Positions 243 to 24,328 of a DNA stretch of 64,000 nucleotides are shown in pieces (position 1 is the first letter of the stretch; each line of letters opens with the position of its first letter). The notes beneath the pieces were generated by a model. The model was not told the origin of the DNA, did no database searches, and saw nothing but the letters and a program-made list of their open reading frames with translations. This stretch comes from an uncultured Isosphaeraceae bacterium (GTDB taxonomy: Bacteria; Planctomycetota; Planctomycetia; Isosphaerales; Isosphaeraceae). The stretch covers positions 1 to 64,000 of the forward strand of contig CAMFLR010000001.1 of the NCBI GenBank assembly GCA_945957605.1, read 5' to 3'. Position numbers and translations under genes: made by a program.

Positions 243-1310
243 ATGGCTCTTCGCGTCGTGCGTCGCCTAACGCTCATTGCTAGCCTCGCCTTTATTGGTT
301 GCGGCGACAGCTCCGCTCCAAGCTCGTCATCAACATCTACCCCTGCCCCGGCGGCTTCAACGTCGGGTCGCACAGTGAAGTTTGTTGGCTTTGACGCGAG
401 TTCGCGACTGGTCGAGGCTATTAAGGAAGGAAAGTTGCACGGCACCGTCGTGCAGAATCCTTATAAGATGGGCGGAACGGGCGTGAAGACGCTCGTGGCG
501 CATCTCGAAAAGAAGCCGGTTGAGGCGAAGATCTCGACCGGCGAAACGATGGTCACACCTGAGAACGTCACGAGCAGCGAGATTGAGCCGCTGGTGAATC
601 CGATCAAGGCCCCCAACTCGCAGAACTCGGCGGTTGGCGGCCCCAAGGCGAAGAAGTATCGCGTGATGGTCATTCCTAAAGGAACGACGCACGAGTTCTG
701 GCAGACGATTCATGCCGGCGCGGTGAAGGCGGCGGAAGAGCTCGGAAACGTCGAGATCATCTGGCAAGGGCCGCAGAAGGAAGATGAGCGGAGCGATCAG
801 ATCAAGCTCGTGCAGAATGCCATTGCGGTCGGTGTCGATGGCATTGTGCTCGCGCCTCTCGACGCGAAGGCTTTGGTTGAGCCCGTTGAGCAAGCGATCG
901 CCAAGGGGATTCCGGTGGTGATCATCGACTCGGGGCTCGAGTCGAACAAGATTGTGAGCTATGTGGCGACTGACAACTATCATGGCGGTGTTCTGGCGGC
1001 GAAGCGGCTGGGCGAGTTGCTCAAGGGAGAAGGGAAGATCATTCTTCTTCGTTATGCGGTTGGTTCGGCGAGCACGGAGGAACGTGAAAAGGGATTCACG
1101 GATACAATCAAGAACGAATTTCCCAAGATCACGTACTTGTCTGACGATCAGTATGCGGGCGCCACTTCGGACCTGGCTCAGCAGAAGTCGCAGAACTTGA
1201 TCACGCGATTTCGTGGGCAGGTTGATGGCGTGTTTTGCCCCAATGAGTCGAGCACGCTGGGGATGTTGCGCGTGTTGGAAGGTGCGGGATTGCTCGCGGG
1301 GCGTAAATGA
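243..1310 (+). CDS. circularly permuted ribose-type ABC transporter substrate-binding lipoprotein
   Basis: Periplasmic sugar-binding component (RbsB/Peripla_BP_4 family) of the importer encoded with the next two genes. An N-terminal signal ends in a lipobox with Cys20, followed by a Ser/Pro/Ala tether. Residues 45-122 (VKFVGFDAS, VVQNPYKMG, ISTGETMVTPENV) then match the extreme C-terminus of the family. After a linker at about 123-136, residues 137-355 match the normal N-terminus onward: KYRVMVIPKGTTHEFW, GVDGIVLAPLD, GIPVVIIDSG, ATDNYHGG, VDGVFCPNESST, ending GLLAGRK. Family members continue GLAGK-VKFVGFDAS, so the order is permuted. The stop overlaps the ATPase start (ATGA). Length, reading frame and motifs are otherwise intact, so the protein may well fold. 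The bound sugar cannot be named. A rearrangement artefact is the alternative. Confidence 0.9.
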   Translation: MALRVVRRLTLIASLAFIGCGDSSAPSSSSTSTPAPAASTSGRTVKFVGFDASSRLVEAIKEGKLHGTVVQNPYKMGGTGVKTLVAHLEKKPVEAKISTGETMVTPENVTSSEIEPLVNPIKAPNSQNSAVGGPKAKKYRVMVIPKGTTHEFWQTIHAGAVKAAEELGNVEIIWQGPQKEDERSDQIKLVQNAIAVGVDGIVLAPLDAKALVEPVEQAIAKGIPVVIIDSGLESNKIVSYVATDNYHGGVLAAKRLGELLKGEGKIILLRYAVGSASTEEREKGFTDTIKNEFPKITYLSDDQYAGATSDLAQQKSQNLITRFRGQVDGVFCPNESSTLGMLRVLEGAGLLAGRK

Positions 1311-2803
1311 CGGACCCCGATGTGGTGATGGAGATGCGTGACGTCGCCAAGGCGTTCGGCGCGAGCCGGGCGCTTGACGGCGTGTCGCTGACGCTGCGTC
1401 GAGGCGAGGTTCATGCGCTGATCGGTGAGAACGGAGCGGGCAAAAGCACGCTCATGAAGGTTCTTAGCGGCGCGTATCGGCCCGACTCCGGCGAGATGAT
1501 CTATGAAGGGACGCCTTACGCGCCTAAAGGTCCGCGCGACGCGCTCGCGCGCGGGGTGGCGATGATCTATCAGGAGTTGGCGATCGCGCCGCACCTGACG
1601 GTCGAAGCCAACGTGATGCTCGGCCAGGAGAAGTCGTGGCGTGGGTTTCTCAAGAAGGGCGAGCATCGCAAGCTCGTTTCGGAAGCGCTGGGATTGCTCG
1701 AACACGCCGAGATTCGGCCCGATGCGATTGCTGGAAGCCTGAGTATTGGGGCGTGCCAGCTTGTTGAGGTGGCTCGGGCTCTGGTCTCGCGTGCGCGCGT
1801 GATTGTTTTTGACGAGCCGACGAGTTCGCTCACCGAGAAGGATGCGTTGAAGCTGTTCGGCGTGATCGAGCGCCTGCGGAGCAAAGGGATTGCGATTGTT
1901 TATATCAGTCACTTTCTCGAAGAAGTGCGACGCCTGGCCGATCGCTACACGGTTTTGCGCGACGGGCGGACGGTTGGCACGGGCTTGATGCGCGAGACCG
2001 ATTTGCCGAGCATCATCAAGATGATGGTGGGGCGCGAGCTGGGCGAATTGTTTCCGAAGTCATCGCGTGAGCCCGGCGATGTTTTGCTGCGTGCTGAAGA
2101 ACTCGGCGGCCGGAAATTGCCGAGGCGGGCGAGTTTTGAGGTGAGGCGCGGGGAAGTGCTGGGGATTGCTGGGCTTGTTGGCGCGGGGCGGACTGAGTTG
2201 GTGCGGTCGATTTTTGGTTTGGACGAGGTCAAGCGAGGCGAGGTTTCGATTGGCGGGACGACGCTCAGTCGCAGTGATGGGCCGAAACAGCGGATGGCGC
2301 TAGGGCTCGCGCTATTGAGTGAGGATCGCAAGGGGGAAGGACTTGCGGTTCGGCGGTCGATCGAGGAGAACCTGACGCTCTCTGGCCTGGAAAAGCATAG
2401 CCGGATGGGCTGGCTGAATCTGGGAGAGCGGAGGAAGTCGGCCCGAAATTGGATGGAGGCCGTCCGAGTGAAGGCGGCTGGTCCGTGGCAAGCGGTCGAG
2501 AAGCTGTCGGGCGGGAACCAGCAGAAAGTGGCGATCGCGCGGTTGTTGCATCAAGACGCGGATGTGTTATTGCTCGATGAACCGACGCGCGGGATTGATG
2601 TGGGATCGAAGGCGGAAATCTATCGGCTGATTGATGAATTCGCGAAGTCGGGGCGAGCGGTGGTGATGATCAGCTCATATTTGCCTGAGCTGATGGGAAT
2701 TTGCGACCGCATTTGCGTGATGACGCGGGGCGTGCTGAGTGACAGTCGTGCCACGAGTGAGTGGACCGAGCACGCGATCATGGAAGTGGCGACGGGAGGG
2801 TGA
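1307..2803 (+). CDS. sugar ABC transporter ATP-binding protein (RbsA/MglA type)
   Basis: Cytoplasmic ATPase with two fused nucleotide-binding domains, energising sugar import through the adjacent permease. The first domain has Walker A GENGAGKST at about 40-48, Q-loop IYQELAIAP, a divergent signature LSIGACQ and Walker B VIVFDEPTSS. The second has the lysine-less GLVGAGRTEL usual for this subfamily, the canonical signature KLSGGNQQKVAIAR and LLLDEPTRGIDVG. The 498 residues and domain order are normal, unlike the preceding gene. Its ATG overlaps the binding protein stop by four bases, so the pair is translationally coupled; the permease follows after three bases. Confidence 0.95.
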   Translation: MTDPDVVMEMRDVAKAFGASRALDGVSLTLRRGEVHALIGENGAGKSTLMKVLSGAYRPDSGEMIYEGTPYAPKGPRDALARGVAMIYQELAIAPHLTVEANVMLGQEKSWRGFLKKGEHRKLVSEALGLLEHAEIRPDAIAGSLSIGACQLVEVARALVSRARVIVFDEPTSSLTEKDALKLFGVIERLRSKGIAIVYISHFLEEVRRLADRYTVLRDGRTVGTGLMRETDLPSIIKMMVGRELGELFPKSSREPGDVLLRAEELGGRKLPRRASFEVRRGEVLGIAGLVGAGRTELVRSIFGLDEVKRGEVSIGGTTLSRSDGPKQRMALGLALLSEDRKGEGLAVRRSIEENLTLSGLEKHSRMGWLNLGERRKSARNWMEAVRVKAAGPWQAVEKLSGGNQQKVAIARLLHQDADVLLLDEPTRGIDVGSKAEIYRLIDEFAKSGRAVVMISSYLPELMGICDRICVMTRGVLSDSRATSEWTEHAIMEVATGG

Positions 2804-2806
2804 ACG

Positions 2807-3847
2807 GTGGGTGTTGAAGATCCCGAGTTCAGCAGTGCATCGAGCGTGGCGAAATCGAAGCGAAACGCCGCGGGGACGGTGCGCTGGTTGATTGGCGTGC
2901 TCGGGCCGTTTTTAGGTTTGATCGTCGTTATTGGGTTGTTTTCATTCCTGACGCGCGACACCGGCTCGTTTCTGACGACCTATAACTGGCGTGCGATCGC
3001 GGTGCAGACGGTGGTCGTCGGCACGGCGGCGCTTGGGATGACGATGATCATGATCACCGGCGGGATCGACCTTTCGGTCGGTTCGGCGGTGGCGCTGGTG
3101 ACGGTGGTTGTTGCGTGTTTAGTGCGCGACGTGGGGATGGCCGTCCCAGTCGCTCTCATATGTGGGGTGCTGGTTGGTGGCGTTTGTGGCCTGCTCAATG
3201 GCGGGTTGATCACGAGCCTCGGCGTGGTTCCCTTCATTATTACGCTTGGTGGCTTGAAGGTCTTTCGCGGACTTGCGAAGTGGTTCTCGTCGAGCACGGC
3301 GGTTTATGTTCCAGGGAGTGCCAAGCCAAGTTGGTTTGGCACATTGTTGGCCGTTGAGCCGAAGCCGGATTGGTTGATTGTCGCGCCGGCGGTTTGGGTG
3401 CTGCTGGTGCTCAGCCTGTTTGTGGCGGTCTGGCTCAGGCGGAGCGTGCTCGGACGGTATTTTTACGCGATTGGTTCGAATGAAGCGACCGCTCGGCTTT
3501 GTGGAATCAATGTGCCCGTCGTGAAGCTCGCGGTTTATGTATTGGCTGGACTGTTCACCGGGCTCGCGGGGATCTTGCAGTTTCTCTACCTTGATGGGAC
3601 GGGCGATCCCACCACGGCCGACGGGCTTGAGCTTCAAGTGATCGCGGCCGTTGTGATTGGCGGCGGCAGTTTGGCGGGTGGTGAAGGAACGATTCTGGGG
3701 ACGTTGATTGGCTGTTTGTTCATGTCCGTGTTGAACAACGGCTGCGTCCACGCGGGGATCTCGAACGCGAGCCAGGATGTGATGATCGGCGGGATTATTG
3801 TCGCAGCGGTTACGCTTGATCGGCTCCGTCGCAAGGGGCGGGATTGA
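2807..3847 (+). CDS. sugar ABC transporter permease (RbsC type)
   Basis: Inner-membrane permease of the same importer, from the branched-chain/ribose permease family (BPD_transp_2). It has a charged cytoplasmic N-terminus, a first membrane segment near residues 27-47, and then about eight more hydrophobic segments. Conserved features include MIMITGGIDLSVGS, the EAA-like loop around YAIGSNEATARLCGI, and the C-terminal GGGSLAGGEGTILGTLIG block. Translation appears to begin at a GTG three bases after the ATPase stop. The three genes form a tight operon with no regulator or sugar kinase beside it. The gene order binding protein-ATPase-permease is standard. Confidence 0.93.
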   Translation: MGVEDPEFSSASSVAKSKRNAAGTVRWLIGVLGPFLGLIVVIGLFSFLTRDTGSFLTTYNWRAIAVQTVVVGTAALGMTMIMITGGIDLSVGSAVALVTVVVACLVRDVGMAVPVALICGVLVGGVCGLLNGGLITSLGVVPFIITLGGLKVFRGLAKWFSSSTAVYVPGSAKPSWFGTLLAVEPKPDWLIVAPAVWVLLVLSLFVAVWLRRSVLGRYFYAIGSNEATARLCGINVPVVKLAVYVLAGLFTGLAGILQFLYLDGTGDPTTADGLELQVIAAVVIGGGSLAGGEGTILGTLIGCLFMSVLNNGCVHAGISNASQDVMIGGIIVAAVTLDRLRRKGRD

Positions 3848-7430: not shown

Positions 7431-8705
7431 TCAGCGCGCTGGTGCGGGTTCGTAGCCTTCGGGGAGTGCCTTCAGATACTTCGGTACCAGTTCTTCGGTC
7501 TTCTCCGGCGCTGACGTGTGCTCGCGAGCGTAGAGGCGTTCGGCGAGATGGATGATGAGTGTCGCGCGGGTGACGGTCTCGCGATCGACTGCCTTATCGA
7601 ACGGTGAACTGAGTATGGCTGGTTTGAGAAGGCGTGTGGATTCGATCCATGTGTTCAATTGCTCGGACGTGAGTCGGCGTGCCGATTCTGGCGCACTCGG
7701 TGGTAAGTCGTAGAGCGTGACATCGCCGAACTTGCGGCGTCGTTTCAGACGTTCAGTGAACGTCAGATCGCCTGCGGCAATTTGGTTTGCCCAGTACAAA
7801 CGGAGGACGCGGCGGCTGCGTTCGGGCTCGCGTTTGAGCAGGTGCCAGAGCGTCTCGTTTACGCGTTCCCGAAAGCTTACCTCTTTTTCGGCGCCGCCTT
7901 CCATGAATTGCCGGAGTTTCTCCCGTGTGAGCCCAGGCTGGTCGAACAACCTCCTGTACGCGAAATACTCGGCCTCAAAAGTCTCGCTCAGCGGCGGAGT
8001 CATCGACTCGATGGCGATCAGGTCGTCGAGAGCCTGACGGAGCAGTTCGATCTCGAGATTCGGCTGATCGGCCCAGGCGAGAATGTTGCCGGCGAGTCGT
8101 TCGTAGATTTCAACTCCGATCGCGCGGCCGACGAATCCTGCGTGCATCGCGCAGTGCCGGCTCGAACGGAGTGCGGCGCGATACATCGTCCAGGCAGCTT
8201 CGAAGTCACCCACGGCTTCCATTCGGAGCCCGGCGATTTGAGCGAGCGAGCCGAAGGAACGCATCGTCTGAAGCGGGTCGAGCGGCTTGTAGTCGATCGG
8301 AGCGTCGCGTGCCTGGATAAAGACGGCGCGGTCCATTGTGGTTCCCGCGAGCCAGATTCGTACCGCCTCATTATTCTCCCAGAACCAGTTACGGTCCTGT
8401 TCGGTGACGTTTGCCCACGACGTGAAACGCCCTCCCGATCGACCGCCTTTTAGCTTTGAAATTGCTACGCGATAGTATGTAAACGCGTTGTCTTTCTCGG
8501 CAATTTTGACTGTGCCGCGGGCATCGAGGTCGAACGGTTCGCCGATGTTGGGAAGGCCGAAGAGGGTAACGCCGCGCCAGACGAGAATGGCTGCGATGAT
8601 GACGCCAAACGGAACGGCGAGCCAGAGCCAGCGAAAACGCGGGCGCTTCCAAACACCGTCCATCGGGCCTGGGTCGTTCCATTCTTCGGCGCGAGGGAGG
8701 CTCAT
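7431..8705 (-). CDS. membrane-anchored paralogue family protein, copy 1 (most divergent)
   Basis: Last gene of a five-gene tandem array of one family that I cannot name. It shares the array architecture: a short cytoplasmic N-terminus, one membrane helix (about residues 25-45), the motif LPNIGEPFDLDARG..DNAFTYY, a helical middle (AALRSSRHCAMHAGF, KREPERSRRVLRLYWAN), and the C-terminal ALIIHLAERLYAREH..ELVPKYLKALPEGYEP. It is the most diverged copy and has a tryptophan-rich leader (RFRWLWLAV). ATG 8705 is taken; a TTG directly before it is in frame. The location is inferred as anchored in the inner membrane with the main domain outside. Confidence 0.85.
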   Translation of the reverse strand: MSLPRAEEWNDPGPMDGVWKRPRFRWLWLAVPFGVIIAAILVWRGVTLFGLPNIGEPFDLDARGTVKIAEKDNAFTYYRVAISKLKGGRSGGRFTSWANVTEQDRNWFWENNEAVRIWLAGTTMDRAVFIQARDAPIDYKPLDPLQTMRSFGSLAQIAGLRMEAVGDFEAAWTMYRAALRSSRHCAMHAGFVGRAIGVEIYERLAGNILAWADQPNLEIELLRQALDDLIAIESMTPPLSETFEAEYFAYRRLFDQPGLTREKLRQFMEGGAEKEVSFRERVNETLWHLLKREPERSRRVLRLYWANQIAAGDLTFTERLKRRRKFGDVTLYDLPPSAPESARRLTSEQLNTWIESTRLLKPAILSSPFDKAVDRETVTRATLIIHLAERLYAREHTSAPEKTEELVPKYLKALPEGYEPAPAR

Positions 8706-8769
8706 CAAATGTCATCCGGCGGCTATGGGTGTTAAGAGCGGACGATCGTACCATTCTGGGCCAGCGAAT

Positions 8770-10071
8770 TCATGGTGTTGCTGGCTTTGGTGCGGGCGAA
8801 GTGGCGGAGCCGCTGGGATCGAATCCTACCGGCAGTTTCTTGAGATATGTGCCTACGAGATCTTGCGCGGCTTTGGGTGGCTTGCCGTTTTCACGGGTGT
8901 AGATTTCTTCGGCCAGATGAATGATCAGAGCGGCCTGCGATTGTTCGTCACGTGAAAGGGCGCGATCGAGTCCAACCCACATATAGGCGTCCAGCTTTGC
9001 GTAGAGCGTTGTGTCGAACCATGCGGCGAGATCGTCGAGCGATAGGGGTGGTGTTTCTCCGGGCGACGGTTCGTAAAGCGTAAGTTCCTTGACTTGCACC
9101 GCCCGCTTCGCGAGTTCGCTGGTCGGCAAATCGGCGGCGGCGAGCCAGTTGGCAACCTCGAGTCGAATTACGCGTCTGCTTCGCTCCGGCTCACGTTTGA
9201 GGGCGCCGTATGCTGTCATCGCCTTGATTTTGATCGAACGAACGAAAGTGGGCGGCGCAGGCGTGGCGAGATTACTCAGCGAAACTTCGAGCAATCGTTC
9301 GCGCCCGTTGTGATCTTCGAGTGAGTTGGTCAGCGAAAAGTAAGCTGTGCGAACGAGGTCGCGACGCGAGACGGTGAGTGCGTTGATTTCGAGTACGTCG
9401 TTCAGTGCTCGCTTGAGTTGCGGGATAGTGACTTTGGTATTCTTGGACCAATGAATCGCAGCGCTACTGGTGGCGTGGTAAACCGCAATGCCGACGCATC
9501 GCCCGATGATTTCGCCGTCCTGTCCCACATGCCTGCTCGCCCTTAAGTTGGCGCGATACCAATCCCACGCCTTAGCAAGATCGCCTTCATGTTCATGGCG
9601 ATAACCGATCAGATTGGCTGAACGGCTGATATTGCGGACCGTTAACGTTACGGGAACTTCTGTCGCGAAATTCACAGTCCCGGGCTGATGATAGACCGCC
9701 CTTGTCCGTTTGGTTCCTTCGAACCAGGTTTCGAGTGCCTGGCGGTTGTCGTCAGCATACGCGAGATGAGTGGGGTCGACGTCGAGCCAATCGGAATAGA
9801 CGCCTTTCATCGTGCCAGGCTCGATGCCTTTCAATTGTTCATGGGCGCGAGCGTAATAAGTGAACGCATTATCTTCGGGATTGATGTGGATGAAGCCGCC
9901 GCGTTCGTGATCGAAGGGAGGCGGAATTTCGGGCAGACCGCGCAGACTGGTCATCCGATAGACGAACGCACCGACGAGGAATACGACGATCGCCAGCAAG
10001 ACGCGAATGACGCGACTTCGCAATGATCTTGCTGGTTTCGTCTCGGCGGTGGCTTTGGTTTCGGTCGCCAT
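8770..10071 (-). CDS. membrane-anchored paralogue family protein, copy 2
   Basis: Second array member, 433 residues, function unknown. Its N-terminus (ETKPARSLRSRVIRVLLAIV) is nearly identical to that of copy 3. It carries the family block LRGLPEIPPPFDHERGG..PEDNAFTYYARAHE after one membrane helix. Further shared blocks are YRANLRASRHVGQDG, LKREPERSRRVIRLEVANWLAAADLP (cited in parts) and ALIIHLAEEIYTRENGKPP followed by DLVGTYLKKLP. A strong AAGGAGG lies 8-9 bases before the ATG. It is preceded by copy 3 with only 21 bases between them, so these two are probably one transcript. Pro/Ala-rich C-terminal tail. Confidence 0.88.
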   Translation of the reverse strand: MATETKATAETKPARSLRSRVIRVLLAIVVFLVGAFVYRMTSLRGLPEIPPPFDHERGGFIHINPEDNAFTYYARAHEQLKGIEPGTMKGVYSDWLDVDPTHLAYADDNRQALETWFEGTKRTRAVYHQPGTVNFATEVPVTLTVRNISRSANLIGYRHEHEGDLAKAWDWYRANLRASRHVGQDGEIIGRCVGIAVYHATSSAAIHWSKNTKVTIPQLKRALNDVLEINALTVSRRDLVRTAYFSLTNSLEDHNGRERLLEVSLSNLATPAPPTFVRSIKIKAMTAYGALKREPERSRRVIRLEVANWLAAADLPTSELAKRAVQVKELTLYEPSPGETPPLSLDDLAAWFDTTLYAKLDAYMWVGLDRALSRDEQSQAALIIHLAEEIYTRENGKPPKAAQDLVGTYLKKLPVGFDPSGSATSPAPKPATP

Positions 10072-10092
10072 CGCGGTTTCCTCCTTAACTAA

Positions 10093-11385
10093 CTATCGCG
10101 CTGCGGGCTTCACCAAAGGTATCGCAGCGCCGGTCGAGTCGAAGCCTGCGGGGAGAGCTTGGAGATAGGGCCCCACAAGATCTTGTGGGGTCGCAGGCGA
10201 TTTTCCTTTTTCGCGTGTATAGATTTGCTCGGCGAGGTGGACGATGAGGGCGGCGCGAGTTTGCTCGTCGCGAAGCATGGCACGTTCCAGGAGGTTCCAG
10301 TTCTGCAAATACATGCGGGCGAAGAGTGTGGTTTGGTACCAACTTGCTAGCTCATTGGGCCGCATCGACTTCGCACACTCTGGTGAATCGTAAAGCGGTA
10401 GTTCGTTGTGCATTTTCAGGAGCTTTAGTCGTTCCGCTGCAGGGAGGTCTGCGGCTGACAACCAGTTGGCCGTGACGAGTTGGAAGACGCGTTTGCTTCG
10501 TTTGGGCTCGCGCCTGATTGCGCCGTAGGCCGCCACTAAGCGGGCTTTGGTCTTGGTTTTGAAAGTACTGGTTGAATTGGAGGCATTGATGAATAAGTTA
10601 TCGAGTGCCTCTCCCCGAATCGAGGAATTCTCGAGCGAGTTGATGTAGTTGAAGTATTCCGCCCGAATAAGGTTGCGGACCGAGCCTGTGAGCGCATCGA
10701 TTTCGAACACGTCCTTGAGCGCCTGCTTGAGCTGATCGGTGGCGACCCTCGGGTTTTCGGCCCAGCGGATCACGTTCGGGACTGTGATGGCGTAGATCGC
10801 GTTCCCGATGTAGCGTTCGATCGCGGCGCCGTTTTGGCCGGAGTGGCGGCTGGCACGAAGGGCTGCGCGATACCACTTCCAGGCTTTGGCGTAATCACCT
10901 TCGTGCTCATGACGATATCCGACGAGATTTGCGGCGTGGCAAAAGTTGCGAAGCGAAAGTAAGGCAGGCAACTCCGTCATAATGTTGAACGTATTCGGCT
11001 GAATATAAACGGATCGCTCACGCGTCGTCCCTTCAAACCAGATGCCGAGCGCTTCGCGATTGTCGTCGATGAACTTGAAGTGTTTCTGGTCGACTTCCGA
11101 CCAATTGGAGTAAGTCGTGGGTATGTCTTGGGACTGAATGTCGCGGCACTTCTCTTGGGCGCGAAAATAATACGTGAACGCGTTGTCTTCGGGTCGAATA
11201 TCGACGACGCCGTCTCGCTCTGGATCGAATGGCGGGGTGATGTCGGGAAGACCACGCAGACTCGTGAGCCTATATGCGAATGCACCGAAGAGAACCGCAA
11301 CGATGGCCAGCGAGACGCGAACGATGCGACTTCGGAGCGATCTGGCAGGCTTGGTCTCTGTGGCGGCTTCGGTTCCGGTCGCCAT
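10093..11385 (-). CDS. membrane-anchored paralogue family protein, copy 3
   Basis: Third array member, 430 residues, function unknown. It has one N-terminal membrane helix, then LRGLPDITPPFDPERDG..RPEDNAFTYYFRAQE, a helical middle with ALRASRHSGQNGAAIERYIG, REPKRSKRVFQLVTANWLSA (one residue class change from the family REPERS), and ALIVHLAEQIYTREKGKSP with DLVGPYLQALPAGFD. ATG 11385 is preferred because GAGG lies eight bases upstream; an in-frame GTG immediately precedes it. It is spaced 57 bases from copy 4, so the array looks operonic. No catalytic motif is visible. Confidence 0.88.
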   Translation of the reverse strand: MATGTEAATETKPARSLRSRIVRVSLAIVAVLFGAFAYRLTSLRGLPDITPPFDPERDGVVDIRPEDNAFTYYFRAQEKCRDIQSQDIPTTYSNWSEVDQKHFKFIDDNREALGIWFEGTTRERSVYIQPNTFNIMTELPALLSLRNFCHAANLVGYRHEHEGDYAKAWKWYRAALRASRHSGQNGAAIERYIGNAIYAITVPNVIRWAENPRVATDQLKQALKDVFEIDALTGSVRNLIRAEYFNYINSLENSSIRGEALDNLFINASNSTSTFKTKTKARLVAAYGAIRREPKRSKRVFQLVTANWLSAADLPAAERLKLLKMHNELPLYDSPECAKSMRPNELASWYQTTLFARMYLQNWNLLERAMLRDEQTRAALIVHLAEQIYTREKGKSPATPQDLVGPYLQALPAGFDSTGAAIPLVKPAAR

Positions 11386-11442
11386 CACCGTTTCCTCGGG
11401 TTGCCGATTGCAAGGCGGTACGACTACTACACACGCATCGAA

Positions 11443-12738
11443 CTATCGTCCTGCCGGCTTCACTGTGGTGGGTATAGTCGCGTCGTTTGGGTCGAAACCT
11501 GCGGGAAGAGCTTGAAGATATGAGCCGACGAGATCTTGCGGCGTCGCGGGCGGTTTTCCTTTTTCACGCGTATAAACTTGCTCGGCAAGGTGGACGATGA
11601 GCGCGGCGCGAGTTTGCTCGTCGCGAACGAGTGCGCGATCGATGTTGCCCCAGCCGGGCATGTACATGCGGGCGAAAATCGTTGTGTCGAACCAGCTTGC
11701 GAGCTCGTCGAGCGGCATAAGGCTGGTAGCTTCAAGTGTATCAAAGAGTGGCAAATCTTTGTGCATCTTGAGGAGTTTGAGGCACTCGGGGGCGGGGAGA
11801 TCGGCAACGGTTAGCCAGTTGCTCACGACGAGCTGGATGACGCGTTTGCTTCGTTCGGGCTCGCGACGAAGTGCGCCATAGGCAGCGATGGCACGCACCT
11901 TGACTTTGGATTTGAAACTCGGTTGTTGGCCAGAGCCATCGAGGTAGGAGCCATCGAGAACCTGGGTGCGAATCGTCGCATCTTCGAGCGAATTCATGCA
12001 CGAGAAATACTCGGCACAGATGAGGTTCCGCGGCGAACCGGTAAGCGCTTCGATTTCGAGCACTTCTTGCAACGCTTGCTTGACCTGAGCAGTCGTCACC
12101 TTGGGATTCTCGGCCCATCGCCGGACGTTCGGACTCGTACTGGCATAGATCGCGACACCAACGAGCCGCTCGATGGCGACACCGTGTTGGCCCGAGTGCC
12201 GGCTGGCTCGCAAATTCGCGCGATACCACTCCCAGGCCTTGGCGTAATCACCTTCGTGCTCATAGCGAAACCCGACAAGATTCGCCGCGCGACAGAAGTT
12301 GCGGAGCGACTGCACGGCGGGCAGCATTGTCATGAAGGTCAGCGTTTTGGGCTGATGATAAAAGCCCCGATCGCGTTTCGTGCCTTCAAGCCAAATGTCG
12401 AGTGCCTCGCGATTGTCGTCAACGAATTTGAGCTGTGCTTGATCAACCTGCAACCAATCCGTGTACGACGCGAGCATGCTCGTGGGCTGGGTGTCGCGAT
12501 ACCTTTCATGGGCGCGAACGTAATATGTAAACGCGTTATCTTCCGGTCGAAGGTCGATCACTCCGTCGCGCTCGCGGTCGAACGGAGGGGGGATGTTCGG
12601 CAGTCCCCGCAGGCTCGTCAGACGCCAGACCGTGAGCCCACCGCCCAGGACGACGATTGCCAGCACGCTGCGAACAATGATTTTGCGAACCGACCGCGCG
12701 GGCTTGGCCGGCGTGAGTGCTTCCGTCGTCGACGACAT
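11443..12738 (-). CDS. membrane-anchored paralogue family protein, copy 4
   Basis: Fourth array member, 431 residues. It is very close to copies 3 and 5 over the post-membrane block (LPNIPPPFDRERDG..LRPEDNAFTYYVRAHE), the middle (YRANLRASRHSGQHGVAIERL) and the C-terminus (ALIVHLAEQVYTREKGKPP, DLVGSYLQALPAGFDP). The membrane helix is at about residues 19-40. Start at ATG 12738; the ribosome site is weak (GGGGATCTC). The 89-base gap to copy 5 has no evident terminator. Function unknown; the C-terminal pattern resembles the helix-Gly-Pro-Leu-Pro motif found at the end of many planctomycete exported proteins, an inference only. Confidence 0.88.
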   Translation of the reverse strand: MSSTTEALTPAKPARSVRKIIVRSVLAIVVLGGGLTVWRLTSLRGLPNIPPPFDRERDGVIDLRPEDNAFTYYVRAHERYRDTQPTSMLASYTDWLQVDQAQLKFVDDNREALDIWLEGTKRDRGFYHQPKTLTFMTMLPAVQSLRNFCRAANLVGFRYEHEGDYAKAWEWYRANLRASRHSGQHGVAIERLVGVAIYASTSPNVRRWAENPKVTTAQVKQALQEVLEIEALTGSPRNLICAEYFSCMNSLEDATIRTQVLDGSYLDGSGQQPSFKSKVKVRAIAAYGALRREPERSKRVIQLVVSNWLTVADLPAPECLKLLKMHKDLPLFDTLEATSLMPLDELASWFDTTIFARMYMPGWGNIDRALVRDEQTRAALIVHLAEQVYTREKGKPPATPQDLVGSYLQALPAGFDPNDATIPTTVKPAGR

Positions 12739-12827
12739 TTGCGAGATCCCCTAATCACTTCGTTTATCGGACAGTTGTAAGCCTACCCCAGCGCGAGCTG
12801 GGATTCAACGACAAATGTCGCAGAGTG

Positions 12828-14108
12828 TTAGCGGGCGGGACTTGAAGGAGTGGTGTACGCGCTGGGAAGTTGCTGGAGATAGGGGCCGACCAGTTCGTTG
12901 GCGGACTCAGGCATGTTGCCGTGCTCGCGCAAGTAAATCTGTTCGGCGAGGTGGACGATGAGAGCGGCGCGGGTTTGTTCGTGGCGAGCGAGTGTCGCGT
13001 CGATGTTGCCCCAGCCAGGGAGATAGACCTTGGCGAAGAGCGTTGTCTCGCACCATTCGGCGAGCTCGTCGAGTGAGAGAGGGCCTGTGTGATTATCGTC
13101 GAGTCGATAGAGCGGAATGCCGCAATGTTTTTCGATCACTTTGACCCGATCGGCAGCCGGCAAATCCGCTGCGGCGAGCCAGTTGGAGAATACAAGCCGA
13201 ATCACTCGGCTGCTACGTTCGGTATCGCGCCTGATGGTGCCATAGGCGGAAATGGCTTTGCTTCGGACGGATTTCGCGAATGATTCAGGCTTTTGATCTT
13301 TGGGAGCGGGGAAGTTGCCGTCGGCGCTCAACGCGATATTGCGGAGAACGGGATCTTCGAGCGTGTTGATCATGCCGAAATATTCGGCGCAGACCATGTT
13401 GCGCGTTGGACCGGTCAAGGCGTCGAGTTCGAGTACATCCTGTAGAGCTTGTTTCAACTGAGCGGCGGTAACCTTGGGATTTTTGGACCAGCGGATGACG
13501 TTTACTTTGGTGTTCGCGTAAATCGCGCTGCCAACGAGGAATTCGATCGCGACTCCGTGTTGACCCAGGTGGCGGCTCGCACGCAGATTTGCGAGGTACC
13601 ATTCCCAGGCCTTCGCGAAATCACCCTCGTGTTCGTAGCGCAGGGCGATCAGATTGGTCGTACGGCTAAAGCTTCGAAGCTTTTGCACGACAGGAAGGTC
13701 TGTGGCGAAGGTTATTTCACGAGGCTGGATATAAACAGCGCGGTTGCGTTTGGTGCCTTCAAACCAGACGTCGAAGGCTGCGCGATTTTCCTCGATGTAC
13801 TTGCGATGAGGTTCGCCAACCTCGGACCAGTCAGCAAAAATAGGCCCCTTCGACTCGGGCTCGAGCGTGCGAAGCATCCCGTGAGCGCGAATATAATAGG
13901 TAAACGCATTATCTTCGGGACGAATGTCGACAAAGCCATCACGCTCGCGATCGAACGGCGGGGGAATGTTGGGAAGGCCACTCAAACTCGTGATGCGGTA
14001 ACCAAAATAACCGCCGACAAGCATTATCGCCGCGAACACGCCGCGAACGATGAGTTTGCGAGTGGATTTCGCCGGCTTTGATGCAACAGCTTCGGTTTTC
14101 GTCGACAT
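12828..14108 (-). CDS. membrane-anchored paralogue family protein, copy 5 (first in transcription order)
   Basis: First gene of the array in transcription order, 426 residues from ATG 14108. That start is preceded by GGGAG at six bases and matches the sibling N-termini; a longer frame from 14165 lacks support. It has one membrane helix at about 19-38, LSGLPNIPPPFDRERDG..RPEDNAFTYYIRAH, YLANLRASRHLGQHGVAIEFL, RRDTERSSRVIRLVFSNWLAAADLP (cited in parts) and ALIVHLAEQIYLREHGNMP with ELVGPYLQQLP. It lacks the Pro-rich tail of copy 2. Upstream lies a short non-coding stretch and a palindrome at 14219. Confidence 0.87.
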   Translation of the reverse strand: MSTKTEAVASKPAKSTRKLIVRGVFAAIMLVGGYFGYRITSLSGLPNIPPPFDRERDGFVDIRPEDNAFTYYIRAHGMLRTLEPESKGPIFADWSEVGEPHRKYIEENRAAFDVWFEGTKRNRAVYIQPREITFATDLPVVQKLRSFSRTTNLIALRYEHEGDFAKAWEWYLANLRASRHLGQHGVAIEFLVGSAIYANTKVNVIRWSKNPKVTAAQLKQALQDVLELDALTGPTRNMVCAEYFGMINTLEDPVLRNIALSADGNFPAPKDQKPESFAKSVRSKAISAYGTIRRDTERSSRVIRLVFSNWLAAADLPAADRVKVIEKHCGIPLYRLDDNHTGPLSLDELAEWCETTLFAKVYLPGWGNIDATLARHEQTRAALIVHLAEQIYLREHGNMPESANELVGPYLQQLPSAYTTPSSPAR

Positions 14109-14218
14109 GGCGCACTCCCAGACAGATGCCAGCGTAACCCATGCATTGTTACGTGGCGACGACAAATGTAAAAGACGGTGGCGAAACTTATCCCGTGGCG
14201 ATACTTTTGGGTTGGTGC

Positions 14219-14299: not shown

Positions 14300-14875
14300 A
14301 TGAACGATTCAATGTCCGACGCGTTGATCAATCGCATCGAGCGTCTGGAGCGGTCGAATCGAAGGCTCCTCCAAGTGCTGGCCAGCCTTGCACTGGTAGC
14401 CGTGATCGCTGTTTCAGCGGCCGCTGCCAAGGTGGCCGCGACTCCTGACATTCTCGAGGCGAAGCGCTTCGTCTTGAAAGGACCCGACGGGAAAGATCGA
14501 GTCGTGATTGGCGTCAATGCCGAAGGAATGACCGAACAGAGTTTTCTGGGAGCGGACGGTAAACGAATGCTGTGCTTCGTTTCTTCAGAAGACGAAGGCG
14601 CGTTTGTGGCCCTTAGCGCGAAAGGTGAAGAAGAACCATGCCTAATTCTAAGAGTTGAAGCTGATGGAATTCCCAACATCGACATGTATGAAAAGGGCAA
14701 AGAGACTGCGAGACTCGATTTGAGTTTGACCAAAGAGGGATTGCCCGTGATGAATTTCTTTGACAACGGGGATAAGCTTCGTCTGCAGTTCATATTGGAT
14801 GCGAACGGAGTGCCACTCTTGACGGTGCGGGATAAAGATGGAAACGTTATCGAAACAATTCCTCGCGGCAAGTAG
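14300..14875 (+). CDS. unrecognised single-pass protein with beta-repeat C-terminus
   Basis: 191 residues. The N-terminus is a short charged coiled coil (RIERLERSNRRLLQVLA), running into a membrane helix at about residues 25-42. After this come four or five short repeats of the form 'hydrophobic-GPDGKDR-VVIGV...G', each ending in a Gly/Asp turn, suggesting a beta solenoid or sheet outside the membrane. AAAGGAG at 14288-14293 supports the ATG. It lies between two inverted REP-like palindromes and just before an RHS remnant, in a region that looks mobile or decaying. I know of similar coiled-coil plus GPDGK-repeat proteins in planctomycetes but no assigned function. Confidence 0.75.
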   Translation: MNDSMSDALINRIERLERSNRRLLQVLASLALVAVIAVSAAAAKVAATPDILEAKRFVLKGPDGKDRVVIGVNAEGMTEQSFLGADGKRMLCFVSSEDEGAFVALSAKGEEEPCLILRVEADGIPNIDMYEKGKETARLDLSLTKEGLPVMNFFDNGDKLRLQFILDANGVPLLTVRDKDGNVIETIPRGK

Positions 14876-15269: not shown

Positions 15270-16397
15270 TCAATGCCATGAAAGATCAGCGATTTCGGCG
15301 CTCGGCAGTAGAGTATTTAGTTCTGCAATTCCCTTTGACGTTACATGTGTGTCCGTGAGAATGAATCGCTGAAGCTGAGTCAACGATTTCAGGACAAGTA
15401 TTCCCGTATCAGTCACTGGCAGGTCTTGAATCGTGAGATCCTCCAGCGATTGTAGTTTGCTTAAATGAACTAGTCCCGCATCGTCGACTCCTTTATTCGA
15501 ACCCAAGGCAAGTTTTTGAAGGCCATCAATAGATTCAAGAGTTTGCAAAGAATGATTAGAAAGATTCATGCGAGTGAGCGTTAGTTTTCTGAGATTGCGA
15601 GCGATCTTTATCCAATCGAGATCTGCGATGTTCATATCGTCAAAAATTATCGATTCATATTTTGAATTAATAAGTCTCCCGAGCTCGGCGCCCGTCACGC
15701 AGGCATGGGCTAATTCGAGTTTCCTAATCTCCTTGAGATGGCGCAGCGTCCGCAAGCCTTTGTCTGTAATGCGGTTACTGCCAAGACTTAACGACTTTAT
15801 TCTTGCAAGTGGAATAAGATGTTCAAGGTCATCATCTGACAGTGGAAGTTCCGAGAGATCGAGATACGTTAGGCTTGTGTTCTCACGCAAATGTACCAAG
15901 CCGGGACCTTGGACGCTGGTCCAACTAAGATTTAACCCTCTAAGCCGAGGCAGGCTTCGCAAGTGCAACAAATCTTCATCGGTGATCTGCTTTCGTCCTG
16001 TCAAATCGAGATAGCTCAGCCCTTTAAGCTCTACAACTCGTTTTAAGAGATCCTTCTCGCCCATCACAGGGCGATCACCAAAATCTGGATGATTAAGAGA
16101 CAAATATGCAACAGAGCCCAAAAAGTCATACCCGCAGGCTTTCACTAGCCAGGTAGGGTAAGGGCAATGATCGACGGTTTGGTCAATGATTCGGTCTCGT
16201 TCCCAATCCCAGTCCCATGAATAGACGACCATTCCACCGTGTTCGCGAACCGCCGCGACGACCTCTCGTTGCTTTCGTTCGTGATAGAGAGTGAGACCCA
16301 CCGCGCTGCCCAAGATGGCAGTCAGCACCAGAAAAACCCTGAGGTTAATTTTCGTCAAGCTACGTTTGAGCATATTACGTAGCATCGGAAAGGCCAT
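15270..16397 (-). CDS. leucine-rich repeat protein with N-terminal membrane anchor
   Basis: 375 residues. One membrane helix at about 19-37 follows a basic N-terminus, then a region of about 90 residues with Trp-rich YSWDWDWERDR, then eight or nine leucine-rich repeats of 23-25 residues. Examples are LKGLSYLDLTGRKQITDEDL, LRGLNLSWTSVQGPGLVHL and IKSLSLGSNRITDKGLRTL. The D-x-GL consensus is that of planctomycete LRR proteins, which are thought to bind proteins; no partner is evident. The gene is noticeably more AT-rich than its neighbours, which may indicate a different origin. An alternative start is ATG 16385. Confidence 0.88.
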   Translation of the reverse strand: MAFPMLRNMLKRSLTKINLRVFLVLTAILGSAVGLTLYHERKQREVVAAVREHGGMVVYSWDWDWERDRIIDQTVDHCPYPTWLVKACGYDFLGSVAYLSLNHPDFGDRPVMGEKDLLKRVVELKGLSYLDLTGRKQITDEDLLHLRSLPRLRGLNLSWTSVQGPGLVHLRENTSLTYLDLSELPLSDDDLEHLIPLARIKSLSLGSNRITDKGLRTLRHLKEIRKLELAHACVTGAELGRLINSKYESIIFDDMNIADLDWIKIARNLRKLTLTRMNLSNHSLQTLESIDGLQKLALGSNKGVDDAGLVHLSKLQSLEDLTIQDLPVTDTGILVLKSLTQLQRFILTDTHVTSKGIAELNTLLPSAEIADLSWH

Positions 16398-17315: not shown

Positions 17316-18602
17316 TCAGGCGTGATGATCCACTCTGTTCGACCGTCGGCTGTGCGCATCGGCGAACTTGGGACGCGGTGGATTGCGGCGCCCGGCTTGG
17401 ATGGATTCAATCAGGCCGAAATAGCGGTCGAGATGTGCGGTTTCGGACCATTCGCCGGTGCGGACGGCGTAGCCGCGATGCGCGAGATTGTCGCGGAGTA
17501 CGTCGTCGTGAACCATGCGTCGGAGCGCGAGCAGGAGCTCGCCGTCGGTTTCGTAGCCGATCCCGCCGCCGCTCTGTGCGCCGGTTTCGCCGATGGCACC
17601 GCCGCCGAGGTGGACGACCACTGGCGTGCGTACGGCGAAGGCTTCGAGGACGACGTAGCCGAATGTTTCGGGGAAGAGTGAAGGGACGACCACGGCACGG
17701 GCGCCGTGGAAGAGGCGGGCGAGTCCTTGACCGCCGAGCAGTCCTTCAAATTTGACGTTGGGCAGATTGGCGGCCATGGCGCGAAGCTCGGGCTCGTAGG
17801 GGCCGGTGCCGGCGATGCGGAGGTCGACCTCCGGCAGGAGCTTCATGATGGGGATGAGTTTTTGGAAGCCCTTCATGCGGACGAGTCGGCCGGCGGCTGC
17901 GATATATGGACGGTCGGTGTGCGGCGGATCCTCGTCTTCGATGCCGTTGGTCCAGTCGTCGGGCAGGAAGTAGGGCAAGTGGACCATCGGGGCGCCGATG
18001 CCGCGCTGGCGATGTTCTTCGAGTGTGTGACGCGAAGGGAAAATCAGGGCGTCGAGCTCGCGGAGGCCGGCGTCGATGGCTCCCGTATAACGCCAGGCCT
18101 GGGGCGGACGGTGGCCGGCGAGCATGCAGCGGATGCATTCGGGGCCGTCGCAGGCTTTTTTGTCGTACTTCCAGAGCAGGTGCATCGGGCAGATGAGCCA
18201 GTGCTCGTGCGCCGTCATCAGTTTCACGGCGTTGCGGCCGAGTTTGAGGACGCCGGGCCCGCCGACGAGTGAGATGTTGTGGAAGTGGATGACGTCGGTG
18301 TCGACGGCTTCGAGAGCTTCGCGAAGAGCGTCGGATTTGAAGAAGGGCTGGCCGGTGATCTGCGTGGCGATGGGCGAGAGCGCACCGGCCTTGGATTCGA
18401 GCGCGTGGACGTGCAGGCCAGGAGGCGGAGTGTATTCGCGGAGCGGGTGATTGCCGCGGACGGCGTTGAAGGCGTCGACGCAGTGAAAGACGTGCACCTC
18501 GTGCCCGCGCCGGACGAGGGCGCGAGAGAGACGGTCGACGTACGCGGCATCGCCCCCAAAGCTGTGGGCACCAAAAAACGTCGTGACCATGCAGACCTTC
18601 AC
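17316..18602 (-). CDS. family 4 glycosyltransferase
   Basis: Retaining GT-B glycosyltransferase (GT4), probably adding a sugar to an exported glycan or glycolipid at the cytoplasmic membrane face. The N-terminal donor-fold opening is KVCMVTTFFGAHSFGGDAAYV. The C-terminal domain carries AAAGRLVRMKGFQKLI, LRIAGTGPYEPEL and VVVPSLFPETFGYVVLEAFA, the last with the EX7E-type glutamates. The middle holds a cysteine cluster (ICPMH..CDGPECIRC) of the kind seen in several GT4 enzymes. GTG 18602 is chosen because AGGAGG sits six bases before it; the frame extends to a GTG at 18620 without support. It stands alone, convergent with nothing on its 3' side. Confidence 0.92.
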   Translation of the reverse strand: MKVCMVTTFFGAHSFGGDAAYVDRLSRALVRRGHEVHVFHCVDAFNAVRGNHPLREYTPPPGLHVHALESKAGALSPIATQITGQPFFKSDALREALEAVDTDVIHFHNISLVGGPGVLKLGRNAVKLMTAHEHWLICPMHLLWKYDKKACDGPECIRCMLAGHRPPQAWRYTGAIDAGLRELDALIFPSRHTLEEHRQRGIGAPMVHLPYFLPDDWTNGIEDEDPPHTDRPYIAAAGRLVRMKGFQKLIPIMKLLPEVDLRIAGTGPYEPELRAMAANLPNVKFEGLLGGQGLARLFHGARAVVVPSLFPETFGYVVLEAFAVRTPVVVHLGGGAIGETGAQSGGGIGYETDGELLLALRRMVHDDVLRDNLAHRGYAVRTGEWSETAHLDRYFGLIESIQAGRRNPPRPKFADAHSRRSNRVDHHA

Positions 18603-18734
18603 CGGCGACCTCCTGTCCACCTTCGCGAACGACCCACGCGCATTCCCTGCGGGTGCGATCTAGTTACCACGATCGGCAGTTATCGCCTAGTCGAAGTGTG
18701 GCAACCTGGCTTCCCAAATCATGAGATGGCGGAG

Positions 18735-20945
18735 TTATACCCATCCCTTGCGCTTGCGGAGCCACCATTCGAGCGTGAGGATTGCTGTGAAGATGAGGAA
18801 GAAGATCCAGTTATCCCAGATCCGCTTTTCCGAGAGGCTCACGCGTTCGGTGGCGCTGGTGTCAAGGCTGGCGAGTTGTTTGCCGAGGGCTTCGGTTGTG
18901 ACCGATTGTCCGCCGGTGATCTCGGCGATGTCGCGGAGCAGTTTGCGATCGGCGGCGGGATTTTCGAGTTCACGGTCGTCCTGGTAGACGTTGAATTTGG
19001 CCTTAGCGCGGCCGAGTTCCTTGGTTCCTTGCTTGGCGATCACTTCGACCTGGTATTCGCCCGGTTTTCCGAGCGCAGAGTAGAAGCCTTTGGCGGATTC
19101 GCCCTGCGGGAAAATCTGCACCGTTTCGGGCTTGGCGTCGGGAGAGTCGGTACGAGTGACGGTGGTTGTGAACTCAGCGTCAGTGATCGCCTCTTTCTTG
19201 GAATTGAGCGCAGCGGCGGTCAGTTCGAGTTTTTCGCCCACGGCCACGCGCCGTTTTTCGAGCTTGAGACGGACTTCGTCGCCGGTTTCGTTCTCGCGGT
19301 GCGCCATCCAAAGAATTGCCTGACGCCAGAATCGGAAGAAGGCGAGCCGGCCTTCGTCGCCGCCGCGGCCCCAGATCCACGTTTCGCCACCGAAGGCGAT
19401 GGTGCGTCCCTTGCCGGTTTCCAAACTCACCAGAAGAGGATCCTGGCCCCCTTCTCCGCCGCCCGTTGCCAGCACTTCGGCGCTTTGCTTGGGCCGGCTG
19501 AAGCGATTGGCACCCGGAAGCGTCGGAAGACTTTCCCAGATGCGCTGGGAGTCGGCGGGGTTGGGGGCGAGGCGGAGAATAAAGCTTTGCATTGCCTTGA
19601 GATTGGGGACGAACTTGATGCCATCTTTCGGTTCGACCGCACCATCGCCCGCACGCATTTCAACCGGCATCACGGCGGCGAGCGGCGAGTTGGCCCAGCC
19701 ACCCTCGCCGAAGCTGGATCGCCCGCCCAGCATGATGAGCCCTGCGCCTCGCGTCACATTCGTGGCGAGCATCGTTTGCTGTTTTTCCGTAAGGAAGTTC
19801 GCGGGGATGCTGCCGATGATGTAGACGTCGTAGTTGCCGAATGCGAATTCGGCGTCGTCGAGCAGGCCACGATCGCCGACGGCCGGCTGACGAACCACCT
19901 TGAGATCGACGTGAATTTCCTTCGCGGCATCGAGCGCGCGGGTGAGGTATTTTGGCTCCCACGAGAAGTCGGTGCCGTGAATGTACAACACCTTCAGACC
20001 GCCGCCGAGGACGTTCAAGTACGTCGTATATTTGTTGTTTTCTTGAATCAGCTCGCCGTCTTGTGCCTTGACTCGAAGCTCCACCCGCTTTTCGCCGGCG
20101 GTTTGCGGGAGGTATTTCAGGCCGGTGATGGGGATGAGCTCGGCGCCTTCGGTTGCGGTCACGGTCGTCCGCGCGACGACTCCCTCTCCTTCGACGTCGA
20201 GCTCAAGCTCGATCGGCTTGCCGGCAAAGCCGCGGACTGAGATCGCCCCCTTGATTTCAGGCTGATTTTTGACGAAGACGACGGGGCCGACCACAAGGTC
20301 GCGCACGGCGATGTCTTTTGATCCCGTGCCCGCGTTTTCTTCGCCAACGCCGACGGTGATGACCGGTACGAGCTTTGATTTGAGCTGGCTGGCGGCGACG
20401 AGCGGCGGAATTCCGGCGTTTGAAGCACCGTCGGAGATCAGCACGATCGAGGCGACGTTCATCCCCTGCATGCGCTTGACGGCTTCGAGCATCATCGTGC
20501 CGAGCGCGGTTTCGGTCCCTTCGGGCTTGGTCTTGTCGTCGACGGTTTCCTCTCGAAGCTCGTTATCAAACTGGAAGACTTTGACTTCGATGTCTTTGAG
20601 CTTTTCGCTGATCGTCTTTTGAGCTTCCGCGAGTGCTTTTTTCGCGACGGTCCAGCGCTGCTGGCCGTTGACCTCGTCGTTGAACGTCTGGCTCTTGCTG
20701 CGGTCGATCATGAGGATGATCGCCGCGGTTTGCTTCTTCTTTTCGGGGAAGTTGATCGACGGCCGAAGCGCGGCGACGAGGCAAAGCAGCACGGCGAGCA
20801 GTCGCAGTCCCAGCGCGAACCAACGCCACGCGCCTTTCGTGTGACGCATGCGCTGGGCGTAGGCCCAGAGAGTGAGAAAGACGACGATGGCCGCGAGGAT
20901 GACCACGACCGGCCAGGGACCAATTGGCTGGAATGTGATGCTCAT
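18735..20945 (-). CDS. membrane VWA-domain protein of the MoxR-BatA cluster
   Basis: 736 residues from ATG 20945, with GGAGA about eight bases upstream; a longer frame from 21023 would overlap the upstream gene. There are two N-terminal helices (about 11-29 and 43-60) and then a von Willebrand factor A domain with MIDAS residues in IDRSKS (Asp81, Ser83, Ser85) and LISDGASNAG. A Ig/transglutaminase-like middle follows. Next is a glutamine-amidotransferase-like segment (VLYIHGTDFSWEPKYLTRAL, GGRSSFGEGGW), and finally a C-terminal helix and basic tail (LEWWLRKRKGWV). It is the last gene of MoxR-DUF58-BatA-VWA, 28 bases after its neighbour. Such clusters are thought to act in assembly or stress tolerance of envelope complexes. 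Confidence 0.88.
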   Translation of the reverse strand: MSITFQPIGPWPVVVILAAIVVFLTLWAYAQRMRHTKGAWRWFALGLRLLAVLLCLVAALRPSINFPEKKKQTAAIILMIDRSKSQTFNDEVNGQQRWTVAKKALAEAQKTISEKLKDIEVKVFQFDNELREETVDDKTKPEGTETALGTMMLEAVKRMQGMNVASIVLISDGASNAGIPPLVAASQLKSKLVPVITVGVGEENAGTGSKDIAVRDLVVGPVVFVKNQPEIKGAISVRGFAGKPIELELDVEGEGVVARTTVTATEGAELIPITGLKYLPQTAGEKRVELRVKAQDGELIQENNKYTTYLNVLGGGLKVLYIHGTDFSWEPKYLTRALDAAKEIHVDLKVVRQPAVGDRGLLDDAEFAFGNYDVYIIGSIPANFLTEKQQTMLATNVTRGAGLIMLGGRSSFGEGGWANSPLAAVMPVEMRAGDGAVEPKDGIKFVPNLKAMQSFILRLAPNPADSQRIWESLPTLPGANRFSRPKQSAEVLATGGGEGGQDPLLVSLETGKGRTIAFGGETWIWGRGGDEGRLAFFRFWRQAILWMAHRENETGDEVRLKLEKRRVAVGEKLELTAAALNSKKEAITDAEFTTTVTRTDSPDAKPETVQIFPQGESAKGFYSALGKPGEYQVEVIAKQGTKELGRAKAKFNVYQDDRELENPAADRKLLRDIAEITGGQSVTTEALGKQLASLDTSATERVSLSEKRIWDNWIFFLIFTAILTLEWWLRKRKGWV

Positions 20946-20973
20946 CGATGTTTCTCCGTCGCGATGAAGTCGC

Positions 20974-23145: not shown

Positions 23146-23203
23146 CGTTTGACGACCTGCGATTTCTGGCGGAAATGCAATGGGATGCGACAAGACACGC
23201 GGA

Positions 23204-24103
23204 CTAACCGCGGCCTTGCCGGCTATTCAGATAGCTCATGAGCGCCTTGTCGAACGGGAGACCGGTATGAAGCGGTACGTAGTCTATCCGCGCGTTCTGG
23301 CACTCCTTGCGGAAGTTCGTCTTGAACTCGTTGACTGCGTCGAGATAGTCGGCCTTCACGGCGTCGGCATCCACCTCGAGCTTTTCGCGTGTTTCATTGT
23401 CCTCGAGCTCGAGCATGCCGGCGAACGGGAACAAGGCTTCAGCTTCGTCGAGAATGTGGAACACGATGACGTCGTGGCCGGAATGGCGGAGACGGTGAAG
23501 CGCTTTGTAGATGGGGCCGGGCTCGGCTAGCAAGTCGCTGAAGATCATCACCAGGCTCTTATGCCGCAGCATGCCGGCGAACTGGTGCAGGCTCTTGGCG
23601 ATCTCGGTTTCGCCGGTCGGTTTCAGGCCGGCGAGCATCGACAGAATGTTGCCGAGCTGAGATCGCTTGCTCTTGGGCGCGAGACTTTTGCGAACTTCCT
23701 TATCGAAGGCGATGAGGCCGACGGGGTCTTGCTGATGGATCATCAGATAGCCGAGCGCGGCGGCGAGGCTGATCGCGTACTCGAACTTCGTCAACTCCTG
23801 GCGATAGGTGTAGCCCATCGACCCGGAGAGATCCATCAGCAGGTAGCCGGTGAGGTTCGTTTCGGCCTGGAACCGCTTGGTGTAGAAGCGGTCGGTCTTG
23901 GCGAAGACGTTCCAGTCGATGTCGGAAATGTTGTCGCCGGGGCTGTACTTGCGATGCTCGGAGAATTCGACGGAGAAGCCGTGAAACGGGCTCGCGTGCA
24001 GGCCAGCGATGAACCCTTCGACAATGAACTTGGCACGCAGGTCGAGCCGGGAGACCTGGCGAATCACCTCGGGCTTGAGATACTTTTCGGCGGTGGACGA
24101 CAA
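23204..24103 (-). CDS. DUF58 domain protein of the MoxR cluster
   Basis: 299 residues. It has the DUF58 hallmark SPGDNISDIDWNVFAKTDR around 54-72 and a downstream VWA-like core with LLMDLSGSMGYT. DUF58 proteins accompany MoxR ATPases and VWA membrane proteins; they are cytoplasmic or membrane-associated partners of unknown biochemical role. Translation appears to start at TTG 24103, with GAGG six bases upstream and no closer ATG; this is an unusual start choice decided by the site. It is separated from the MoxR gene by 225 bases that contain the palindrome at 24260, and from the BatA gene by 58 bases. Confidence 0.93.
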   Translation of the reverse strand: MSSTAEKYLKPEVIRQVSRLDLRAKFIVEGFIAGLHASPFHGFSVEFSEHRKYSPGDNISDIDWNVFAKTDRFYTKRFQAETNLTGYLLMDLSGSMGYTYRQELTKFEYAISLAAALGYLMIHQQDPVGLIAFDKEVRKSLAPKSKRSQLGNILSMLAGLKPTGETEIAKSLHQFAGMLRHKSLVMIFSDLLAEPGPIYKALHRLRHSGHDVIVFHILDEAEALFPFAGMLELEDNETREKLEVDADAVKADYLDAVNEFKTNFRKECQNARIDYVPLHTGLPFDKALMSYLNSRQGRG

Positions 24104-24259
24104 GGTCGGCCTCGCTCAGCGGATTTCGAGGTGATGGGGACAGAATCTTCTCTCGCTGAGGAGCAACGCGATCTGAGCAACGGAATGGAATAGGTTGAGT
24201 AATGCGGCCACGAGAGGGCGAAAGGGACAACTTCGCGAGATCCTCTTGTCGCTTCGCGA

Positions 24260-24281
24260 CCGGGACAACAAGTTGTCCCGG
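24260..24281. repeat. dispersed GGGACAA palindrome, copy 2
   Basis: CCGGGACAA-CAAG-TTGTCCCGG, a perfect nine-base-pair stem in the gap between the MoxR and DUF58 genes, flanked by GCGA and CCAC. It matches the arm at 14900. It may be a REP-type element or an mRNA processing/attenuation hairpin within the operon. Confidence 0.5.
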
Positions 24282-24328
24282 CCACCCAATTCTATCTATC
24301 GCGTTGTCCTAACAGCGTAACTCCTCTC

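Follow-up and report, generated by a model that had tools for sequence, protein, structure and literature searches.

A tandem array of five membrane-anchored helical proteins in an Isosphaeraceae genome and its relation to the C-terminal domain of ABC-2-type permeases

Gene content of the array and its surroundings

The window analysed here is a stretch of 64,000 nucleotides from an Isosphaeraceae (Planctomycetota) genome of 8.84 Mb in 33 contigs (G000). Its minus strand contains, between positions 7431 and 14108, five consecutive intact open reading frames (ORF) encoding proteins of 424-433 residues, counted from the likely starts. Copy 5 (12828-14108) is the first gene in the reading direction and encodes 426 aa from the ATG at 14108, with the longest ORF reaching 14165. 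It is followed by copy 4 (11443-12738, 431 aa), which was used for the AlphaFold2 model, and by copy 3 (10093-11385), which encodes 430 aa from the ATG at 11385 in an ORF beginning with a GTG at 11388. Copy 2 (8770-10071, 433 aa) has a Shine-Dalgarno-like AAGGAGG just upstream of its start. The diverged copy 1 (7431-8705, 424 aa) has a probable ATG at 8705 within a longest ORF of 7431-8708; copies 1 and 3 thus probably start one codon inside their longest ORFs. Promoter-like hexamers on the minus strand at 14145-14172, upstream of copy 5, are candidates only, with 9 of 12 matches and no commoner than in shuffled sequence, and scans for terminators and promoters likewise revealed sites no more numerous than in shuffles.

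The codon-usage model picked all five copies as genes, and the proteins could be aligned end to end with a mean column identity of 64%. The five-gene minus-strand array described in a sequence-only reading of this DNA is therefore borne out by intact ORFs, alignment and codon usage, and the motif blocks quoted there were found in the array proteins, with the DNAFTYY and SRH blocks strictly conserved in all five. Its statement that copies 2-5 are close and copy 1 diverged also holds: copies 2-5 are about 54-66% identical among themselves, whereas copy 1 shares 32-35% identity with the other four.

At the DNA level the copies are 63-72% identical, the longest exact run in common is 25 bases, and the spacers of 21-89 bp show no visible match among them. 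By these values the array is a set of old duplicates without sign of recent gene conversion, and the check for concerted evolution suggested in the sequence-only reading found no trace of it. An assembly artefact, for which nothing was found in favour, is almost certainly wrong as an explanation, given the low DNA identity, the unrelated spacers and the presence of more arrays in independent genomes. Assembly duplication was rejected.

Several genes surround the array. A divergent neighbour at 14300-14875 encodes 191 aa with an N-terminal hydrophobic stretch and apparent repeated short beta motifs, and showed no Pfam match. A leucine-rich-repeat protein at 15270-16397 (LRR_8, E 2.7e-7) also starts with a hydrophobic stretch, and was not picked by the codon-usage model. 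The region 17316-25417 is composed of MoxR AAA ATPase, DUF58, BatA and VWA/GATase1-like genes and then a glycosyltransferase, syntenic with a genome of the same genus (G001), and a DUF4159 gene lies near this cluster at 27442-29736. The nearest ABC genes, at 1307-3847, encode an ABC_tran protein and a BPD_transp_2 permease (PF02653) and are of the sugar-importer type, not ABC-2.

Distribution and duplication history

The window's genome contained ten standalone copies in three clusters: the five in the window, two on contig C12 and three on contig C18. At least one full-length standalone copy was found in 21 of 45 Isosphaeraceae genomes. Beyond this family, a handful of genomes from one further family in the class contained full-length relatives, including a three-gene cluster in G313. 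The standalone copy at G018 C22:53851-54911 was recovered as two adjacent matches and is possibly frameshifted or split.

On C18, the genes next to the copies encode a W/Y-type tRNA synthetase, a TPR protein and an FAA hydrolase. The site with these flanking genes is present in six genomes, where it carries three copies (G000), one (G001), one (G008), five (G004), one (G012) and one (G002). This site is ancestral. Its neighbours give no hint to function, and no general conserved gene neighbourhood of standalone genes was found among the compared loci.

In a tree of 38 members, copies 2-5 formed one clade (100/100), which supports the local duplication proposed in the sequence-only reading as the source of the array. 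Copy 1 paired with the G001 orthologue (100/100, 53% identity), and the five window copies together with this orthologue formed a supported clade (98/98). Copies 2-5 arose by duplication inside the G000 lineage, and copy 1 is older. The G001 locus is syntenic with the window; the genes at 17316-24103 have homologues only there among the compared loci. Upstream of the copy 1 orthologue, at the place held by copies 2-5 in the window, G001 contains a decayed remnant of 148 residues (L044:14533-14979, C230) with the N-block joined to the C-tail and the middle missing. The G001 contig stops 385 bases past the copy 1 orthologue, and the copy count there may be incomplete.

Variation of copy number at the conserved site between genera (3, 1, 1, 5, 1, 1), the remnant in G001 and the many Isosphaeraceae genomes without any standalone gene would all fit an array that is mostly a by-product of duplication, with little or redundant function and a birth-and-decay turnover. 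However, all five copies are intact, and NG86 dN/dS among copies 2-5 was 0.20-0.29, well below 1, a rough ratio since synonymous sites are saturated (dS > 1). We therefore regard the by-product explanation as unlikely; the array copies are under purifying selection, roughly measured as it is.

Paralogous expansion is well described in planctomycetes (PMC8567305). The array is a real lineage-specific expansion and a fairly ordinary one, moderately informative and unsurprising for a planctomycete, of a family that is nameless in the searched libraries and now tied to a known protein kind.

Homology to ABC-2-type permeases

Scans of the five array proteins against Pfam, NCBIfam and PADLOC gave nothing over cutoff, and we found no paper on the family in the open-access literature. 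The earlier remark that no named domain is recognised was confirmed for Pfam and NCBIfam. The description as an uncharacterised, membrane-anchored family is supported, as no library family covers these proteins. The family is not isolated.

Searching with a profile of 36 standalone-family members (A3) revealed a second kind of protein, about 930-1140 aa long and present in most Isosphaeraceae genomes, whose C-terminal half matches the family. These fused proteins have 10-13 predicted transmembrane (TM) helices by a crude count. Direct comparison of the two profiles by hhalign gave 99.95% probability and E 1.6e-37 over 389 columns, aligning positions 31-436 of the standalone profile with 475-876 of the fused one, that is, from the TM helix to just before the permease tail. 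In the reverse search of the window's genome, the fused profile recovered the array copies at E 1e-22 to 1e-28, at about columns 459-847 of 929.

The fused proteins are assigned to ABC-2-type permeases by several observations. In L075, PF12679 scored 41.8 bits (cutoff 27.2); in L071, L073 and L087 it fell just under cutoff, and PF12698 was over cutoff in L071. An ABC-ATPase motif lay directly upstream on the same strand at 18 of 19 fused loci. The fused form was found throughout the class Planctomycetia. The one fused permease of the window's genome (C15:6984-9920; L114:6966-9908) reached no Pfam model, and its identification comes from the fused profile, which it matches along its full length (E 8e-234); an ATPase is encoded beside it (L114:9944-10963, PF00005, 1.1e-25). 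In G062, the fused permease at C2:4019169-4021871 appeared as two adjacent matches and is possibly frameshifted or split. The profile alignments show that the whole array protein, TM helix included, is homologous to the part of an ABC-2-type permease of about 950 aa that comprises its last helix and its C-terminal domain.

In a tree of 73 rows, which has no outgroup root, the standalone Isosphaeraceae proteins were set apart, together with their relatives from the other family, by a branch (99/65) that, by label count, was present in all 200 bootstrap trees. Eighteen of the 19 fused domains grouped together (100/100); the nineteenth, L081, has a very long branch and an unsure placement. Judged by this tree, the standalone proteins are an old lineage of their own within the permease-domain superfamily. 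Since the standalone and fused proteins group apart, the former are not recent break-offs of the permease of the window's genome.

The homology raises the question of whether the standalone proteins work together with exporters. They might be interchangeable extracytoplasmic subunits of ABC-2 exporters, docking via the TM helix at the position that the permease fills with its own last helix and C-terminal domain, and altering what is exported. The homology takes in the TM anchor and stops just short of the permease tail, and the genome has a complete permease-ATPase pair, both as such a subunit would need; we nevertheless consider this role doubtful, because no ABC-2 genes adjoin the array loci and the two kinds of gene showed no association across the 45 Isosphaeraceae genomes (16 with both, 5 with standalone only, 13 with fused only and 11 with neither; Fisher p 0.21), a set in which several genomes are incomplete MAGs. 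Five of the 21 genomes bearing standalone genes have no fused permease, and two of these five are listed as 99% complete, which argues against obligate subunits of the fused permease; an obligate partnership is unlikely. The standalone proteins may instead partner other ABC-2 permeases. That the duplicated free-standing outer domains would be swappable adaptors, redirecting in trans one or several ABC-2 exporters, is a long shot; export specificity would be varied in an unusual manner if copies did act on exporters in trans.

Predicted structure and proposed role

The AlphaFold2 model of copy 4, built with 12 sequences, reached pLDDT 85.1 and pTM 0.82, and the domain without its anchor 82.9 and 0.84. 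The model contains a TM helix at 14-40 followed by about a dozen helices, with a small hairpin as the only beta structure. We are confident that the predicted fold is an all-alpha solenoid of about 380 residues after one N-terminal TM helix. The membrane anchor read from sequence earlier was recovered both in this model and by TM prediction. Foldseek and VIA-align searches of the PDB, with the whole model and with the domain alone, found no specific relative; the matches were generic helical repeats with Z up to 10, within the range of unrelated helical models. Generic matches of this kind are expected for an alpha-solenoid, and a weak match is no proof either way.

Charge bias across the TM helix favours an N-in/C-out orientation family-wide, with no clear bias in copy 4 alone. 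From this bias, and from the position of the domain after the last helix of the permease, we infer that the helical domain lies outside the inner membrane.

Across 36-38 members, only P47, P52, F53, N68, A69, R177, Y244, E295, R296 and R299 are near-invariant. The most conserved segment family-wide is the helix 292-308 (EPERSxRVxxLxxxNWL, mean entropy 1.24), the N-block 42-67 is the next most conserved among the non-helical parts, and variability peaks in the loop 266-274, across the family as well as within copies 2-5.

This pattern bears on the hint, given in the sequence-only reading, of a conserved site at DNAFTYY and SRH, from which the array proteins could be taken as membrane-anchored enzymes. 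None of the five copies departs from either block, as would be expected of such a site, but the invariance is confined to the array: the S and H of SRH vary across the 36-38 members, and the permease version has RMARQ there. SRH is thus unlikely to be catalytic, and with no match to an enzyme fold or family we consider the enzyme explanation very improbable.

The reading we prefer, held with moderate confidence, is that the array proteins serve as free-standing helical scaffolds, anchored in the membrane and exposed outside the cytoplasm, which duplication has diversified under purifying selection. Each gene encodes a single-pass protein in which a short basic N-terminus, probably cytoplasmic, precedes one TM helix and an all-alpha solenoid of about 380 residues, probably on the outer side of the inner membrane. 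Fold and anchor are inherited in common with the planctomycete ABC-2-type exporter permease, namely its last helix and its C-terminal extracytoplasmic domain. The proteins would most likely be membrane-tethered binding scaffolds in the periplasm or paryphoplasm, holding a protein, peptide or envelope polymer. The tandem copies may be variants with differing binding faces, retained by purifying selection, and the proposal includes no catalytic step. A helical solenoid is by itself no indicator of function, and the topology comes from charges and homology. The comparison supplies an identity for a domain missing from the models of Pfam and NCBIfam, and a repeatedly expanded family gains, through its link with the outer domain of a conserved ABC-2 exporter, a testable place and partner.

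Comparison with known systems places the array proteins as follows. The array proteins, being predicted all-alpha solenoids, may resemble TPR and other alpha-solenoid repeat proteins in fold, but no TPR model reached cutoff in them: the best, TPR_14 in one copy, gave E 0.33 and 12.2 bits against a cutoff of 23.5. The PDB sequence search returned only designed TPR and chance matches (CTPR, E 0.024).

The tails of fused permeases (for example L075:2632-5700 and L073:4382-7279) weakly resemble the C-terminus of GspG (E 0.02-0.03), and against 2kep (GspG) a fused-permease tail gave E 5.9. These three weak matches all point to the major pseudopilin of the T2SS (PF08334, TIGR01710) and are at most a lead; they concern a tail that the array proteins do not have. 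The prepilin methylation motif N_methyl had no match in the five array proteins, whereas DUF1559 proteins encoded in the genome do match it in the library used.

Other standalone planctomycete proteins of 440-680 aa (for example L088-L099) match the central and C-terminal helices, but they lie on a different tree branch (84/93), several have a longer C-terminus, and one is fused to a WD40 propeller. L096:6247-8562 (G102, from another family of the phylum) encodes a 771-aa protein with the helical region N-terminal and the WD40 propeller C-terminal.

The 10-13 transport helices of the planctomycete ABC-2-type permeases (PF12679, ABC2_membrane_2) are absent from the array proteins, which have one TM helix each rather than multiple spans, show no ABC2 Pfam match and are encoded without an adjoining ABC ATPase. 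The permease tail DPYxGxPFGY ... LYSVGPDxxD is also missing from them, as they end about 15 residues past the LP motif. Up to that point, the alignment of the array proteins with the last TM helix of the permease and its helical domain of about 390 residues is full-length.
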